Part shown: positions 3,599 through 36,607 of the stretch, in pieces
Layout: each line of letters begins with the position of its first letter
Numbering within the stretch: the first letter of the stretch is position 1
Assembly (NCBI GenBank): GCA_031279635.1
Contig: JAITIC010000028.1
Span: 1 to 37,612 of the forward strand
Direction of reading: 5' to 3'
From: Treponema sp.
Lineage (GTDB): Bacteria > Spirochaetota > Spirochaetia > Treponematales > Breznakiellaceae
DNA length: 37,612 bases
Made by a program: the position numbers and the translations under genes
The notes under the pieces: generated by a model
Told to the model about the DNA's origin: nothing
Database searches by the model: none
Seen by the model: the letters and a program-made list of their open reading frames with translations, nothing else

Positions 3599-3694
3599 AT
3601 GAGCCTCCGCGGAGCAGAGCTTGGCAAGTGCAGCTTGCATGGCAAGCATAGTTTGCCTTAGGGTATTAAACCAGACTTTCGAATCAAAAAGTCC
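3599..3694 (+). repeat. Dispersed hairpin repeat, copy A
   Basis: The copy starts with GAGCCTCCGC, contains a degenerate GGCAAGC/GTTTGCC stem and ends with GGTATTAAACCAGACTTTCG. It begins 15 nt after the stop codon of the transporter gene. The same end sequence recurs at 12168-12190, 18337-18354, 30457-30480, 33220-33247 and 33946-33967. The rest of 3585-3860 shows no gene. Confidence 0.8.
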
Positions 3695-11993: not shown

Positions 11994-12192
11994 ATGAGTC
12001 TCCGCGGTATCTTTAGCGTTGGGTTGTACCGGAACGGAGGCTCGTTCGAGAGGAAATTTATAATACCCTCTCCCGCGCAAGCGGGTTCTTGGGTTTAATA
12101 CCAAAAGTTTGTAAGCGTTGCGTCATTTGAGCCGCGGCAAGCCAGGCAAGCTGCGCTTGCCTTGGGGCGATTAAACCAGACTTTTGAATCAA
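11994..12192 (+). repeat. Dispersed hairpin repeat, long copy B
   Basis: This copy opens with GATGAGTCTCCGCGG and carries a TCCCGCGCAAGCGGGT hairpin (GCAA tetraloop) and GGTTTAATACC (12092-12102). It ends with a GGCAAGC/GCTTGCC-type stem and ATTAAACCAGACTTTTGAA. The segment 12043-12188 is nearly identical to the reverse complement of 18338-18480. It starts 11 nt after the stop of the large unknown gene. With the palindrome and terminator listed next, it accounts for most of the 480-bp gene-free stretch 11983-12463. Confidence 0.85.
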
Positions 12193-12201
12193 TTAATGAA
12201 T

Positions 12202-12237
12202 GAGCCTGTTCCAAAACCTCGGGTTTGGAACAGGCTC
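12202..12237. repeat. Perfect palindrome next to repeat B
   Basis: GAGCCTGTTCCAAA and its exact reverse complement flank the 8-nt loop ACCTCGGG. Half of the same motif, TGTTCCAAAACCTCGGGTTT, recurs alone at 13913-13932, so this is a repeat rather than only a local terminator. Confidence 0.75.
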
Positions 12238-12463: not shown

Positions 12464-13357
12464 TTACCGTGAGAAGTTCTGGAGGTGCAGTTCGTTGACC
12501 CCGTTTTTGAAGCTGAATTTCTTCACGTTGCCGTTATACCGCCTGTCCCGGTTTTGCCCGGAAATCGGATTTTCCTGCTCTGTCTGGTTACGGGAAGTGG
12601 CATCCTTGGTGTAGACATAAGTACCCGGGGGTAATTGACCCGTACCCGTATTGGGGGCTCTCGTCAAAAATACATAGTAAGAGCCGGTCTTTTGCCAGAC
12701 TTGGTTCCTGCCGGCGGTAGTGTCATACAAAAACAGGTCGATGTAGACGCCTTCTTTTGTCCGGGTAAGCATCGGGGCAGTGATTGTATACCCCTCCCCC
12801 TGATTAGCAATTATGGTGCCATCCGCTCGGGTCACTCCGGTTCCAATTACGTTATATAACCGGCCTGGAAGAGTAGCACCCGGTGCTTGCACCGCTTGAG
12901 CACCATTTGCAAGGGTATCCATCATGGTATCCCCATTTGTGAGGCTTCTAAGTGTGAGCAAATTCTGCGCGCCGTCCGCCCCCGATACCATATAGTCATA
13001 TATACTTTGTCCACTACCAGGACTGACAGCGGTCGTAGCATTAGTAGTGGCAACTGCCTCAGTAGCCCCACCAGCAATATTATAATCATACATAGTTTGG
13101 TACAGTGTCGATGCCCTGGTGAGGTTATTCCATTTGTCTCCGGTGAAGCTCGCCAAGGTGATCGCAATTTCATCCCACTCATCCAACGGCAAACCAGGAC
13201 CACCAGCAGTAGCAGTAGCAGTATCCTCAATCCACAGCCGCAGGATCGTGTCCTGCCCGACGCCGGAGCCTTCCTCATCGGTCGGCTGCGCACAGGACGC
13301 AAAAACGAGCGCCAGCGCTACGGCAAGCACTCCCAGTTTTACTAACCTTTTCTTCAT
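12464..13357 (-). CDS. Lipoprotein of unknown function
   Basis: The 297-residue product starts with a lipoprotein signal: a basic MKKR, a hydrophobic stretch, and the lipobox LVFASC about residue 22. The mature part is Thr/Ala/Gly-rich and polar (e.g. ATTNATTAVSPGSGQSIYDY), then more ordered near KEGVYIDLFLYDTTAGR and TGSYYVFLTRAPN, and ends with VNELHLQNFSR. No known domain was recognised. ATG 13357 is chosen over ATG 13363 because GGAAGGAG lies seven bases before it but only one before the other. The gene has a long GC-rich leader and its own terminator, so it is monocistronic and probably regulated after initiation of transcription. Confidence 0.8.
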   Translation of the reverse strand: MKKRLVKLGVLAVALALVFASCAQPTDEEGSGVGQDTILRLWIEDTATATAGGPGLPLDEWDEIAITLASFTGDKWNNLTRASTLYQTMYDYNIAGGATEAVATTNATTAVSPGSGQSIYDYMVSGADGAQNLLTLRSLTNGDTMMDTLANGAQAVQAPGATLPGRLYNVIGTGVTRADGTIIANQGEGYTITAPMLTRTKEGVYIDLFLYDTTAGRNQVWQKTGSYYVFLTRAPNTGTGQLPPGTYVYTKDATSRNQTEQENPISGQNRDRRYNGNVKKFSFKNGVNELHLQNFSR

Positions 13358-13363
13358 ATCCAT

Positions 13364-13570
13364 ACTCCTTCCTTCCCGGGCGCGCGCGTTTTTGCCACCA
13401 CAATCCTGCGCAACGTCCCTTCGGTTTATACTCAGGGAAGCGGCCCCGCACCCTGACAGGGCGCCGGCCTTGACAGACCGCAGGACCTTTACCCGCCGCC
13501 GGGTTCCCCTTTGTACCCCAATCTCCGCCGCGACGCGGCGGCTTCCGGCAAGCCCTTTCGGTTGATCACC
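13364..13570 (-). promoter_or_regulatory. Long GC-rich, structured leader of the lipoprotein gene
   Basis: About 200 nt of non-coding, GC-rich sequence separate the probable promoter from the lipoprotein start. On the minus strand it contains CCGCCGCG-T-CGCGGCGG (an 8-bp inverted repeat) and a GCGCCCT/AGGGTGC hairpin. The near-repeated phrases ACCGAAAGGGCTTGC and ACCGAAGGGACGTTGC are placed near its two ends. This arrangement suggests a folded RNA. It does not clearly match any riboswitch class that I know. Confidence 0.4.
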
Positions 13571-13576
13571 GGTTAT

Positions 13577-13620
13577 AGAGAATATAGATTGTTTTTTTTG
13601 TCAACAATAATTTTAAGGAA
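13577..13620 (-). promoter_or_regulatory. AT-rich promoter region of the lipoprotein gene
   Basis: A sharply AT-rich block interrupts GC-rich DNA. On the minus strand it reads TTATTGTTGACA, a run of eight A, then CTATATTCTCTATAAC. TTATTG with TATATT at 18 nt is one possible pair. The TTGACA has no -10 at the ideal spacing, so the exact boxes are uncertain. Confidence 0.4.
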
Positions 13621-13753
13621 GGATAAAAAACGGCGCTTTCCCGCGTTCCCCGGCCGCGCCTTTCCCGTTCGTTCTCAATTTGCATTTATGCCGCCTGAGG
13701 CGCGTGTTTAGGAAGCAAAAACGAAAAAACCGGTAAAAGACAGAGGAATGAGA

Positions 13754-13910
13754 GGAGAAATACGGGAAATTTGCGGATTTTTATCCGATAAACGCCTGGC
13801 CTTGGGCGCTATAAAACGCCTGTTGGGAACGGCGGCGGAAGGGGGATTTTTAAGGGCCGGAAAAAAGGGGAGCAAAGTTGTTCATTTTGTGAACAATTCG
13901 CGGAATTGGG
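13754..13910 (+). repeat. Direct repeat 1 flanking the Y1-transposase-like gene
   Basis: This ~157-bp block matches 14630-14785 in the same orientation with scattered substitutions and a few small indels. The central TGTTGGGAACGGCGGCGGAA part is identical. It contains a TTGTTCA-TTTTG-TGAACAA hairpin (13878-13896) that is preserved in the other copy through a G-U pair. No gene is evident in it, although a frame through it runs into the transposase-like ORF. Confidence 0.85.
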
Positions 13911-13996
13911 TTTGTTCCAAAACCTCGGGTTTCACTTTTTTATGCTTTTTTCCCGTCTCACTAAAGCAACCAGCGCCTCAATCACATATATACCGT

Positions 13997-14485
13997 ATGA
14001 GAATGAAACGAATCTTGGCGCAGGGCGTATGGTACGAGGTGCGCACAGCGGTCAATAACCGTGAGCCGCTCTTCAGGTTGTACGGAGCCTCGGCGCTCTG
14101 CTTCCGGGTACTCCGCGAGGCCAAAGGACTCTTTGCCTTCGAAATTCGCGAGATCAGGCTTGAGGATGAGCGACTGTCGTTCTATATCAAGCCGGCCCGC
14201 GGGTTCCAACTGCCACAGATCCTGCAGTGGATAAAGCAGACGTTTGCCGTCCGGTTTAATGTACGGACGGGAAGGAGCGGGCATATCTGGGGGGACCGCT
14301 ACTGGTCGCGGATAGTGGCGGGGGAGCCGCCGGAGTGGGCGGAGGTGGAGGCGGAGAGTGAAATGCAAGTACCGGCAGCCAAAAGGCGACTGCCGTCGAG
14401 GGTCAGCCCCCGAAAGGCGGGCAAGAGGGCAAAATTGCTGTTTTTACCCCACCTCCCCCTTCATTCCACATCCCCACCCGGCTAA
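13997..14485 (+). CDS. Y1/RAYT transposase-like protein without an HUH motif
   Basis: The first 110 residues match the REP-associated (IS200-like, Y1) transposase fold: RILAQGVWYEVRTAVNNREP, an alpha-beta core, then LPQILQWIKQTFAVRFN and RSGHIWGDRYWSRIV. At the strand that carries the catalytic His-hydrophobic-His the sequence is instead LEDERLSFYIKP, and no late catalytic Tyr region is present. It is therefore probably not a working transposase: either decayed or domesticated for DNA/RNA binding. The C-terminal 50 residues are basic and low in complexity. The start at ATG 13997 has no ribosome site and lies close to an AT-rich CATATATA stretch. The gene sits between two ~156-bp direct repeats. 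Confidence 0.65.
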   Translation: MRMKRILAQGVWYEVRTAVNNREPLFRLYGASALCFRVLREAKGLFAFEIREIRLEDERLSFYIKPARGFQLPQILQWIKQTFAVRFNVRTGRSGHIWGDRYWSRIVAGEPPEWAEVEAESEMQVPAAKRRLPSRVSPRKAGKRAKLLFLPHLPLHSTSPPG

Positions 14486-14533
14486 GCGGCGAAAACCGAC
14501 CCAAGCTCCCGCGGGAACAGCCTCACAGACAAG

Positions 14534-14566
14534 CTCCTCAGCGTCCTCCGGAAACGGAGCGAGGAG
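14534..14566. repeat. Nested hairpin downstream of the transposase-like gene
   Basis: CTCCTC (14534-14539) pairs with GAGGAG (14561-14566) around an inner stem-loop CTCCG-GAAA-CGGAG (14546-14559). It sits about 50 nt after the stop, where a REP-type foldback would be expected. It could also be a terminator, but there is no T-run. Confidence 0.5.
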
Positions 14567-14629
14567 TAGTCTGACCCAATACCGCACAGGGAAAAGAACA
14601 TTTTACCCTCAAAAAAGGCGGGAAAAGTG

Positions 14630-14785
14630 GGAGAAATACGTGGAATTTACGGATTTCTATTCGGTAAACGCCTGGCCCTGGGCGCTATAAAACACCTGTT
14701 GGGAACGGCGGCGGAAGGGGGATTTTTAAGGGCCGGAAAAAAGGGGGCAAAGTTGTTTATTGTGTGAACAACTCGCGGAATTGGG
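14630..14785 (+). repeat. Direct repeat 2 flanking the Y1-transposase-like gene
   Basis: Second copy of the block at 13754-13910. The unit between equivalent points is about 876 bp. Together with the hairpin at 14534 and the M48 promoter it fills the gene-free stretch 14486-14889; nothing else is evident there. Confidence 0.85.
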
Positions 14786-14854
14786 GACGGAGAGCGCCCG
14801 GAGCGCGGGGGAAGGCGGCCCGCGCCGTTGGCAGAACGAAGTATTCGTGGGACG

Positions 14855-18326: not shown

Positions 18327-18336
18327 CGTTTATTCG

Positions 18337-18505
18337 AAAGTCTGGTTTAATACCCCAAGGCAAGCTCGCTTGCCAAGCTCACTCCGGCTCAAATAACGCA
18401 ACGCTTACAGGAACTTGGTATTAAACCCAAGAACCCGCTTGCGCGGGGGAGGGTATAATAAACTTCCTATCGAACGGGCCTTCGTTCAAACCAACGCAAC
18501 GTTTA
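18337..18505 (-). repeat. Dispersed hairpin repeat, long copy C
   Basis: Long copy in the opposite orientation to copy B, starting 10 nt after the leuS stop. Inverted copies of GGTTTAATACC (18344-18354) and GGTATTAAACC (18417-18427) enclose the GGCAAGC/GCTTGCC stem. An adjacent CCCGCTTGCGCGGG hairpin follows. Its outer part (to about 18505) diverges from copy B. Confidence 0.85.
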
Positions 18506-30456: not shown

Positions 30457-30519
30457 TTATTCGAAAGTCTGGTTTAATACCCTAAGGCAAGCTCGCTTGC
30501 CAAGCTTGCTCCGGCTCAG
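30457..30519 (-). repeat. Dispersed hairpin repeat, copy D
   Basis: ATTCGAAAGTCTGGTTTAAT, then the GGCAAGCTCGCTTGCC stem and TGCTCCGGCTCA. It begins 3 nt after the stop of the plus-strand gene and, on its other side, cuts off the AbiEii-like remnant. Confidence 0.85.
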
Positions 30520-33180: not shown

Positions 33181-33247
33181 TGAGCCTCCGCAAGGCAAGC
33201 CCGGCAAGCGGGCTTGCCCTGGGGTATTAAACCAGACTTTCGAATAA
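33180..33247 (+). repeat. Dispersed hairpin repeat, copy E
   Basis: Starts TGAGCCTCCGCAAGG, has the perfect AAGCCCG-GCAA-GCGGGCTT stem region and ends GGTATTAAACCAGACTTTCG. Confidence 0.85.
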
Positions 33248-33316
33248 ACTGCTAGCCGGCAGACGAAATCTGTAGTATAATAAACAAAAATCTTGAGATA
33301 TAGATTGGAGGCTTGT

Positions 33317-34181: not shown

Positions 34182-35204
34182 ATGTGAAGGCCCACTTTAT
34201 ACAAACACCGGGGAATTTGGCAGGCGCGGATATGGAGCGCGGATGAGAAAAAATATCATGTTCATTCCCTGGGGATCGTTGCTGAAGGCAAGCGGGAGCG
34301 CCGCCGGGAAGCGGAAGAAGCGGCCCGTGTTCTGGCGGAAAAGCTGGAAGTGGAAGCCCGCGCCGCCGCCGCTCCCCTCCGTAGCCCGGAAGTTGACCGG
34401 CCCCTCCTGGAGTACGCAGCCGCTTTTTGGGCGGAGGACAGCGAGTACCTCCGGGAAAAAGCCCTGATCGAAAAAAAGCCCGTCTCCTACCACCACGCCT
34501 TAACCAACCGCCAGATGGTCAAAAACAAGCTGGCTCCCTTCCTCGGTTTCCAGGGCGTTACCCTCTCCGGGATCACGAAGCCCCTCATCCGGCAGTGGAA
34601 AATCTGGCTCGCCGGGCAGGGATATTCCGGACGCACGATCAACGGCGCCATGGCGGCCCTCCGGGTCCCGGTCAGGCGGGCGTTTGGGGACGACATCATT
34701 CCCGTCGATCCCTTCGCCGGCGTCCCCCAGGCACCGCACCAGGAAAAGCTCCGGGGCATCCTCAGACCGGCGGAGATTAAAAAACTGCTTGAAACGCCGG
34801 TAACCGATCCCCGTTCCCGCCTTGCGGTATATTTGGCCCTGTACTGCTCTATGCGCATGGGTGAAGCCCGCGGTCTCCAGTGGGGAGATATTGCCGATGG
34901 GGTGATCCACATCTGTCACAACTGGCAGGAGATCGAGGGGCTCAAGGGGTGCAAGCAGGGATCGGAGGGATATGTCCCTATGCCCCGGATTGTGGCTGAT
35001 CTGGTCAACGAGGTGCATGCAAAGGCGCCGCTTACCGGGCCAGGTGATTTTGTCATGGCCCAGCGGCCCTATCATCCGGTGTCGCGGGAATTCCTGGGGA
35101 AGGCGCTGAGGACGGAACTTGCCTCTATCGGCATCACGGAGGATGAGCGGAAAAAGCGGAACATCGTGTATCACAGTCTCCGCCACAGTTTTGTGGGGGT
35201 GAGG
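34182..35204 (+). pseudogene. Tyrosine-recombinase integrase, nonsense at codon 2 and 3' truncated
   Basis: A tyrosine integrase is clear. The N-terminal DNA-arm part is LYKHRGIWQARIWSADEKKY, followed by the core-binding domain (WAEDSEYLREKAL to WKIWLAGQGYSGRTINGAMA). The catalytic Arg is in MRMGEARGLQWGD and the His-x-x-Arg in YHSLRHSF. Two defects kill it. The ATG at 34182, well placed after GAGG, is followed at once by TGA. After HSLRHSF (about 35193) the frame enters DNA that is antisense to the tail-sheath gene, so the last His and the nucleophile Tyr are lost. It lies beside a tRNA fragment, the usual target of such enzymes. Confidence 0.85.
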
Positions 35205-36607
35205 TCGTCCGGGAGTACGGCGCCTTCAGGGAGAGGAACGCCGATGTTCTCAATCTTGACCTTGCCCCACACCCCGGCGGTTTTAAGATGGTACTCCACG
35301 CCCCGGTAATCGGGAATGACTTCGCCTTCTATGGTAAGCTCCTCATGCGGCTGGAGATCGGCCCATTTGGCGGTGAGATCGGCTTCCTCGGCTTCGCTCA
35401 AAATCTTTTGCCCCTGCCCCAACAGGCAGTACACGGCAGCTTCTTCGTACAGGCGTATGCGAGCAGCCTCTATTGCCTCGGTGATAGGCTTCAGTTCCTG
35501 TATGTACGGCGAGGTCCCGGTTGGTGTACTCGGTCGTCCAGTCCTGCCCCGCGTTGCGGGCCAGAATGCCGGGATCAATGCCTGAAAGCGGGGCGTCGCT
35601 GTAGCCTTTCTCGGCAAACTGCGCGTTGGTGATCTCCATATACCCCAGGGCCTCCGCCGCGATTTCCGCCGGATGGGTGAGGCTTCCGGGGCGGCATACG
35701 ATCCCATTCGTCCGGTCAGTCTTGCGGGTATCGGTATAGAAGATAAGCGCCGCCAGCCCGTCGCTGCCGGGGCTTACATCCCCGACAAGGGAGCGGAACG
35801 GCCGGGCGATGGTTTCCTGGTAGAGGCCTATGTTTTCATTGCCGATCCCGTTGTATTCGGAGAGGGCGTCAAGGACGGTGCTGTCTTTGCCGTACCCGTG
35901 GACAATGGCGGTAAAGCCCGCTTCATTGGCGCTGTCCCCGCCGCCTAACGCGAGGGGAAGGTCCGCGGCTACATCGGGAAGGCCGGAGCCGCCCGTCATC
36001 GGGGCGATAATTACCGTTACTCCCTGCGGCTTTTTTTCCCCTTCGGCCGGGCGCTGGTTAATGGCAGCCGTGATCCCGTTGCCCAGGGCCCGGCGCTTTT
36101 TGACGTGAAAGTAATCACGCCGTCAACATTGTCGGCGCTTACGGGGCAGGCCTGGTCGGCGGTTATGGCGGCAGCTATGCGGCCCCCTAAGAGCGTCGCG
36201 GTGTCGGTAGGTTGTACGGGGATACCGTACTTTTTCCCGGCCACATAGAGGGCGAGCGTTCCCGATTGCGGGGCTGACACGGAGAGGGTGAATGTCCCCT
36301 TCGCGAAGGTTGCCCCGCTTATGTCGGCCTCGACAAGCAGACAGACCGGAACGGCGTTACCGGAACCGCGAAAGGCGGCGATAGCGAGGCGGTGGGCCAT
36401 GGAGCCGGGGCCGCATTTGCTTGCGACATCTTCGGGCGATAATACCAGGAACGGCGTACCCATGATGTGTTTATCCGCATAGGAGGAAAGCGCCGTCGCT
36501 ATGATGAGGATTTTTCTGGCGAGCACCTCCCCGCTAAATGCCAGCGGAACATTTTTTACTTCGATACTCACACCGGCGGCAACGCTGTTGTCAAGTATGA
36601 TACCCAT
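35205..36607 (-). pseudogene. Mu-like contractile tail sheath protein, frameshifted
   Basis: The product resembles the Mu gpL-type sheath, which forms the contracting tube around the tail. The N-terminal frame (MGIILDNSVAAGVSIEVKNV, from ATG 36607 with AAGGAG) runs to about 36090. There it must shift by one base to continue as GNGITAAINQRPAEGEKKPQ, then MTGGSGLPDVAADLPLALGG. A second one-base shift near 35508 leads into YIQELKPITEAIEAARIRLY. The 3' end fuses to the integrase remnant at about 35200. The summed length (about 465 residues) is near the family's. Both shifts could be assembly errors, but the truncated end and dead integrase argue for decay. Confidence 0.75.

Follow-up and report, generated by a model that had tools for sequence, protein, structure and literature searches.

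What can a mobile element gain from a dead enzyme? A working gene is normally absent from non-autonomous elements, and a dead transposase usually decays or turns into a single host gene. The gene at 13997-14485 (+) of the window, the whole 37,612-nucleotide stretch of Treponema sp. DNA analysed here, encodes a dead transposase relative of a kind that is both multicopy and selected, and this raises the question of whether binding by itself is enough to keep a gene on a mobile element. As detailed below, its HUH-less relatives form one clade, occur in multiple copies, carry inverted ends on one third of the copies tested and have a core under purifying selection.

The window protein and its HUH-less relatives

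The window protein has 162 residues, with a conserved core (approximately residues 1-104) and a variable tail that follows the block GHIWGDRYWS. Its open frame spans 13748-14485, and comparison with homologues places the start codon, ATG, at 13997. It scores 21.3 bits against Pfam Y1_Tnp (cut-off 23; profile positions 7-109 of 121) and 28.1 bits against the NCBIfam model for REP-associated tyrosine transposases (cut-off 80); a homologous core domain is present, below the curated cut-offs of both profiles. In alignments, ERLSFYI (within LEDERLSFYI) falls on the [NT]H[IVL]HLLI of HUH-bearing relatives, and the strand carrying the catalytic histidines is replaced. The profile matches and this alignment bear out an earlier note on the locus, which had described a RAYT-like protein without HUH. 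A further loss absent from that note is that of Y---NP, given in excerpts of PMC6006769 as the catalytic-tyrosine motif of class 2. A search of solved structures returned chance-level matches only.

The gene is preceded by a 5′ leader, CTAAAGCAA...CATATATA (13961-13996, +), which we read from the sequence and which resembles the leader of HUH-bearing relatives, e.g. L002 and L013. Downstream, the stretch from the stop codon onwards (14486-14600) folds more strongly than expected by chance (z -2.66, equalled in 2 of 200 shuffles), confirming the hairpin noted earlier after the stop (14526-14573, +). GVRP or a near variant is frequent in the tails of aligned HUH-less proteins, and nucleotide alignment shows that in several copies it is encoded as a palindrome, GGGGTCAGACCCC. 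Palindromes of this sort precede the gene or sit at the stop codon in several HUH-bearing relatives, and the HUH-less tail may therefore represent read-through of a former 3′ REP.

Scanning named genome contigs yielded 79 loci, all in records titled Treponema sp. or Spirochaetaceae bacterium, which, from their isolate names, we take to be termite-gut assemblies. At E 1e-38 or better, 33 of 195 family genomes, from 15 genera, matched the HUH-less clade (some of the candidates, 18 per genome, being scored). The next genome had a best match of only 1e-32, and loci read from genomes with weaker best matches were all HUH-bearing, with the sole exception of G153. In a sample of 392 genomes from the phylum, with 9 candidates scored per genome, three matched at 1e-38, all from the same family, and the clade was found in no genome of another family. 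Among viral contigs, 30 stretches fitted a search pattern and none was a relative.

From 187 proteins found, 164 were distinct, identical proteins having been dropped, and 131 of these had a full core. The HUH-less counts are those caught by the pattern search and the later family searches; alignment A1 holds the HUH-less loci from the pattern search with the window protein, and loci from JAI... records overlap partly in genome origin with those under G handles. The 131 proteins divide cleanly: 37 have both histidines, 94 have neither and none has just one; among the 37, L008 has a masked base within its HUH motif. Neither HxH anywhere in the protein nor Y---NP was found in the 94, three of which are shortened by contig ends; Y---NP is present in 35 of the 37 HUH-bearing relatives. 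A tree of 106 columns was built from all 37 HUH-bearing rows and from 42 of the 94 HUH-less ones, of our choosing. Of these HUH-less rows, 41 lie on one side of a branch with 100/100 support, a rough value, as the bootstrap had not settled. The remaining row, L241 (G153:C49), sits on a very long branch among HUH-bearing rows, has ENWIDLYI at the HUH strand and lacks Y---NP; it may represent a second, independent HUH loss, in a genome that holds 8 matches. The GHIWGDRYWS block is invariant in 27 aligned HUH-less members, and a similar block, GH.WGERF.S, occurs in HUH-bearing relatives.

The histidine split and the tree, together with the dN/dS values given below, uphold the idea of a stable HUH-less family rather than random decay. 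The earlier note had regarded intact HUH homologues in close relatives, together with random placement of the repeat block, as a sign of simple decay. Such relatives do exist nearby, but the HUH-less clade stands apart from them and is under selection, so that simple decay does not follow.

Element limits, direct repeats and dispersed palindromes

In several genomes, homology between copies ends sharply on both sides of the gene, with blurred limits in JAIRSQ. The elements are 0.6-0.95 kb long, have the HUH-less gene as their one recognised gene and carry inverted ends of two recurring kinds: type A is CTAAACTTGACCC, and type B is GAG(G/C)CTGTTCCAAAAC. Flanks of 250 nt or more to the left and right were available for 77 copies, of which 27 have a full end pair (19 type A, 8 type B; 0.2 and 0.0, respectively, in shuffled flanks) and 50 lack a complete recognised pair.

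Type A elements appear, on reading rather than scoring, in or beside GC-rich REP-like palindromes. They show no fixed-length duplication (n = 22): identical flanks are at most 2 nt long in all but L046 and L208, which have 8 nt (permuted mean 0.28) and 9 nt (permuted mean 0.05), respectively. HUH-bearing copies can have type A ends too. In G061, 11 such copies were read and 5 have these ends on both sides, L246 among the 5 being frameshifted before the tyrosine; none of 7 HUH-bearing copies read in G059, or of 6 in G045, had such a pair. The multicopy HUH-bearing genes of G061 thus carry type A ends in part.

Type B ends bound short dispersed palindromes as well as gene-bearing elements, and the motif has 121 matches in the window's genome, G000, compared with 2 for a reversed control. 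This common motif substantiates the proposed sequence link between the element ends and the dispersed palindromes of the genome. We scored 58 type B elements, 52 without and 6 with the HUH-less gene; nested palindromes among them can share a flank. Exactly 4-bp target duplications flank 20 of these elements, whereas with the flanks permuted 2000 times the mean was 1.6 and 20 was never reached. This excess points to a DDE-type enzyme for type B. Among the pieces read, no full-length DDE-transposase element with type B ends was found. A duplication of its own is present in one of the six gene-bearing elements, L052 (AATT); in L034 and L073, ACTT and TGAA stand crosswise, an arrangement that recombination between two copies would give. 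In the window, a short palindromic mini-element with type B ends (12202-12237, +) has GAAT on both flanks, a 4-bp target duplication.

The window element itself begins with a type B left end, TTTGTTCCAAAAC (13911-13923, +), with homology to its nearest relative, L031, running from 13913 to 14594 (L031:3614). L031 has its right end, GTTTTGGAACGGCCTC, at 3634-3649, and the right end expected in the window (14595-14607, +) is decayed. Two direct repeats frame the element, as described earlier at about 156 bp: copy 1 (13754-13910, +; 157 nt) abuts the left end, and copy 2 (14629-14785, +) is 92.4% identical to it. With its right end decayed and its target duplication diverged by 7.6%, the window copy looks old.

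A third, undivided copy of the repeat lies elsewhere in the same genome (G000:C222:6407-6563). On the left it aligns with window 13485-13910 (431 nt, 88%), on the right with window 14629-14807 (181 nt, 87%), and the overlap of the two matches is the repeat itself. It follows that host sequence was duplicated around the window element, either on insertion or through recombination at a later time, and that the repeats are a local target duplication outside the element. We also checked the flanks of the 79 loci, leaving out 9 that were too short and 19 at contig edges. Of the 51 copies counted, only L036 has flanking direct repeats of at least 60 nt (115 nt, 94%, unrelated sequence); L048, L050 and L066 have shorter ones of 43-55 nt. 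The empty-site-like third copy and the one case in 51 lead us to reject the idea that the 157-bp repeats are long terminal repeats or a flank that the element requires, and the suggestion that they form part of the unit is not supported. A hairpin in the repeats, said to be preserved by a G-U pair, holds in its letters (TTGTTCA..TGAACAA in copy 1, TTGTTTA..TGAACAA in copy 2). In RNA folding its stem is part of the optimal structure of copy 2 (z -2.24), whereas copy 1 prefers another fold (z -1.93). The region 5′ of a lipoprotein-like gene (12464-13363, reverse strand), at window 13485-13910, is repeated on G000:C222 at 88% identity.

Palindromic repeats elsewhere in the window, also reported in the earlier note, are of at least two kinds. 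Besides those with type B ends there is a REP-like repeat around GTCTGGTTTAATACCC, at window positions 3653-3687, 12158-12192, 18330-18391, 30457-30518 and 33214-33248. Exact matches to GTCTGGTTTAATACCC number 93 in G000, 96 in G031, 32 in G032 and 0 to 7 in the other 36 genus genomes searched. The expectation that gene copy number would track these palindromes is not borne out, as G000, with 93, has one intact gene and G031, with 96, has 34 matches; the type B motif is moreover common in G032 and G021, in which the HUH-less gene was not found. We therefore reject such tracking. In G032 and G021 (L272-L291) the type B-ended palindromes include composite ones of about 160 bp, and six read in G032 have 4-bp target duplications; an enzyme that moves them was not found in either genome. 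Farther along, the window carries a phage-type integrase gene (34350-35309, +; Pfam Phage_integrase, 47.9 bits), followed by three reverse-strand frames, up to 37326, with no Pfam match.

Copy number, selection and possible partner enzymes

Matches per genome run from 1 to at least 150. The window's genome has one intact gene, together with a fragment and a stop-ridden remnant (L003, L004). G031 has 34 matches, 33 of them free of internal stops, and in 12 cases the match starts where its contig does, the pattern of unresolved near-identical repeats. In G107, where 150 of 272 candidates were scored, matches number at least 150, and in G108, with 150 of 157 scored, at least 75. Across the 145 matches listed for these two genomes, many of them partial, 7 have in-frame stops; all 12 G107 copies that we read, chosen from the best matches, have full frames. 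The gene had been suggested to be a non-transposing, domesticated relative, and the numbers in G031 and G107 contradict this: it belongs to a multicopy mobile element.

To measure selection we used the Nei-Gojobori method on groups of our choosing, consisting mostly of full-frame copies. Median dN/dS was 0.15 in the core and 0.70 in the tail for JAIROT, which is G031 (8 copies, 28 pairs), 0.19 and 0.28 for JAIRZS (10 copies, 45 pairs), and 0.17 and 0.52 for JAIRSQ (11 copies, 55 pairs). The window copy and three JAITJI copies gave 0.12 in the core (6 pairs) and 0.50 in the tail (3 pairs). Across genomes the values were 0.17 in the core, for 92 of 120 pairs, the rest being saturated and without a finite value, and 0.67 in the tail. 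Strong purifying selection acts on the HUH-less core, including between copies that share a genome.

We searched for enzymes that might act on these elements in trans, in genomes 55 to 98% complete, where any single absence is weak evidence. G031 had no PF01797 match at E 1e-6 or better; at 1e-3 there were 11, all coinciding with HUH-less copies. PF01797 had no match in G167, and the best matches of G071, G077, G091 and G101 were HUH-less copies. REP-type HUH enzymes were read in G078 and G084 and IS200-type ones in G068, G070 (where four further matches were left out of the reading) and G107; in G067 and G108 the reading gave no clear frame. The pieces read in G081, G082 and G125 were interrupted or partial IS200-like ones only. 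HUH-bearing REP-type genes themselves reach 24 to 88 matches per genome in G045, G043, G059 and G061 (L238, L236, L250, L234), with 88 in G045 and 45 in G043, unusual numbers given that such genes are described as single-copy.

Possible roles and comparison with known systems

Our preferred account, to which we give a little less than an even chance, gives the protein an accessory role: by binding DNA it would help its own element to use an enzyme supplied in trans, a mechanism that we infer. Binding offers the simplest explanation for copies that spread and yet depend on a protein with no active site. The gene, in a small mobile element of treponemes related to termite-gut ones, would descend from a REP-associated Y1 transposase gene. 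The HUH pair and the tyrosine motif would have gone, and the front two thirds of the fold, which remained, could still hold folded single-stranded ends. On this view the protein's target would be single-stranded DNA folded into the end hairpins of the element that encodes it, and the trans enzyme might be an HUH Y1 transposase for type A ends and a DDE-type transposase for type B. A preference for the encoding copy would explain the intact frames in spreading copies. Against it count the partner searches in these incomplete genomes (no PF01797 partner found in G031 or G167, best matches that are HUH-less copies in G071, G077, G091 and G101, and no full-length DDE element with type B ends among the pieces read), the 50 of 77 copies without a recognised end pair and the single own duplication among six type B carriers, and two unrelated end types fit poorly with a single binding protein.

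A self-limiting repressor strikes us as unlikely; here the dead protein would sit on transposon ends, obstruct active transposases and be retained because the host is protected or over-transposition stopped. A repressor would suit the retention, judged by sequence, of the front two thirds of the fold, the selected core and the end types common to HUH-bearing elements and mini-elements. It would not, however, promote its own multiplication, which reaches 34 matches in G031 and at least 150 in G107, unless it favoured its own copy, and the HUH enzyme that it would target was not detected in several genomes. We consider it quite unlikely that the element is autonomous through new chemistry, the HUH-less protein moving it alone or with a host nuclease. 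The element has one recognised gene, under purifying selection; it is amplified in G031, where an HUH Y1 gene was not found, and GHIWGDRYWS is invariant. Yet the similar block of HUH-bearing relatives means that this block need not be new, and of the two unrelated end types one has the 4-bp duplications typical of other transposases. A broader proposition, which we rate as doubtful, is that of a self-spreading bacterial element whose sole protein, Y1-derived and without an active site, recruits a host or foreign nuclease or uses unrecognised chemistry, and which has replaced its HUH ancestors in several genera.

That the gene is a passenger, host-useful or neutral, carried by unrelated mini-elements, appears decidedly improbable. 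End types do differ between genomes, and gene-free short type B-ended elements are common in G000, G032 and G021, but neutral genes should decay, and stop-free frames (33 of 34 in G031) and low dN/dS among copies are seen instead. Least probable of all, in our estimation, is plain decay of a transposase gene in the window's genome. The fragment and the stop-ridden remnant in G000 and the decayed right end of the window copy speak for it; HUH loss is, however, common to the whole clade and the core is selected, and these observations contradict simple decay as an account of the family. Decay may still describe the future of this single window copy.

The closest known system is TnpA_REP/RAYT (class 2 TnpA-Y1), whose members, according to excerpts of PMC8266576, bind and cut folded single-stranded REPs. 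The core is homologous (27 of 27 aligned HUH-less members match NF047646 at E 0.01 or better), the leader is similar, and hairpins and dispersed palindromes lie nearby. As to REP flanks of the gene's own family, dispersed type B ends occur not only in G000 but in G032 and G021 as well, where the gene was not found. The HUH-less proteins differ in lacking HUH and Y---NP, the window protein reaching 28 of the 80 bits of the cut-off. RAYTs are vertically inherited, single-copy genes according to PMC8049555, whereas the HUH-less clade has 1 to at least 150 matches per genome; class 2 genes, according to PMC6006769, are low in copy number except for subclass 2.3. The HUH-less clade departs from described RAYTs in catalytic residues and copy number, and the multicopy HUH-bearing relatives of G045 and G043 depart from them in copy number. 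Among the titles and abstract openings returned by our searches of open-access literature, none described an HUH-less Y1 family.

Other systems resemble the element in part. Like IS200/IS605, it is small, has one small Y1-type gene and, for type A, inserts without a fixed-length duplication; unlike them, its protein lacks the catalytic residues and its ends are inverted repeats. With MITEs and REPINs it shares the form of short multicopy inverted-repeat elements with the same type B ends. Those, to our knowledge, have no conserved gene, whereas the HUH-less element has one under selection. Finally, type B elements resemble DDE-type insertion sequences and their MITEs in having terminal inverted repeats and 4-bp duplications (20 of 58 elements, 52 of the 58 being gene-free).
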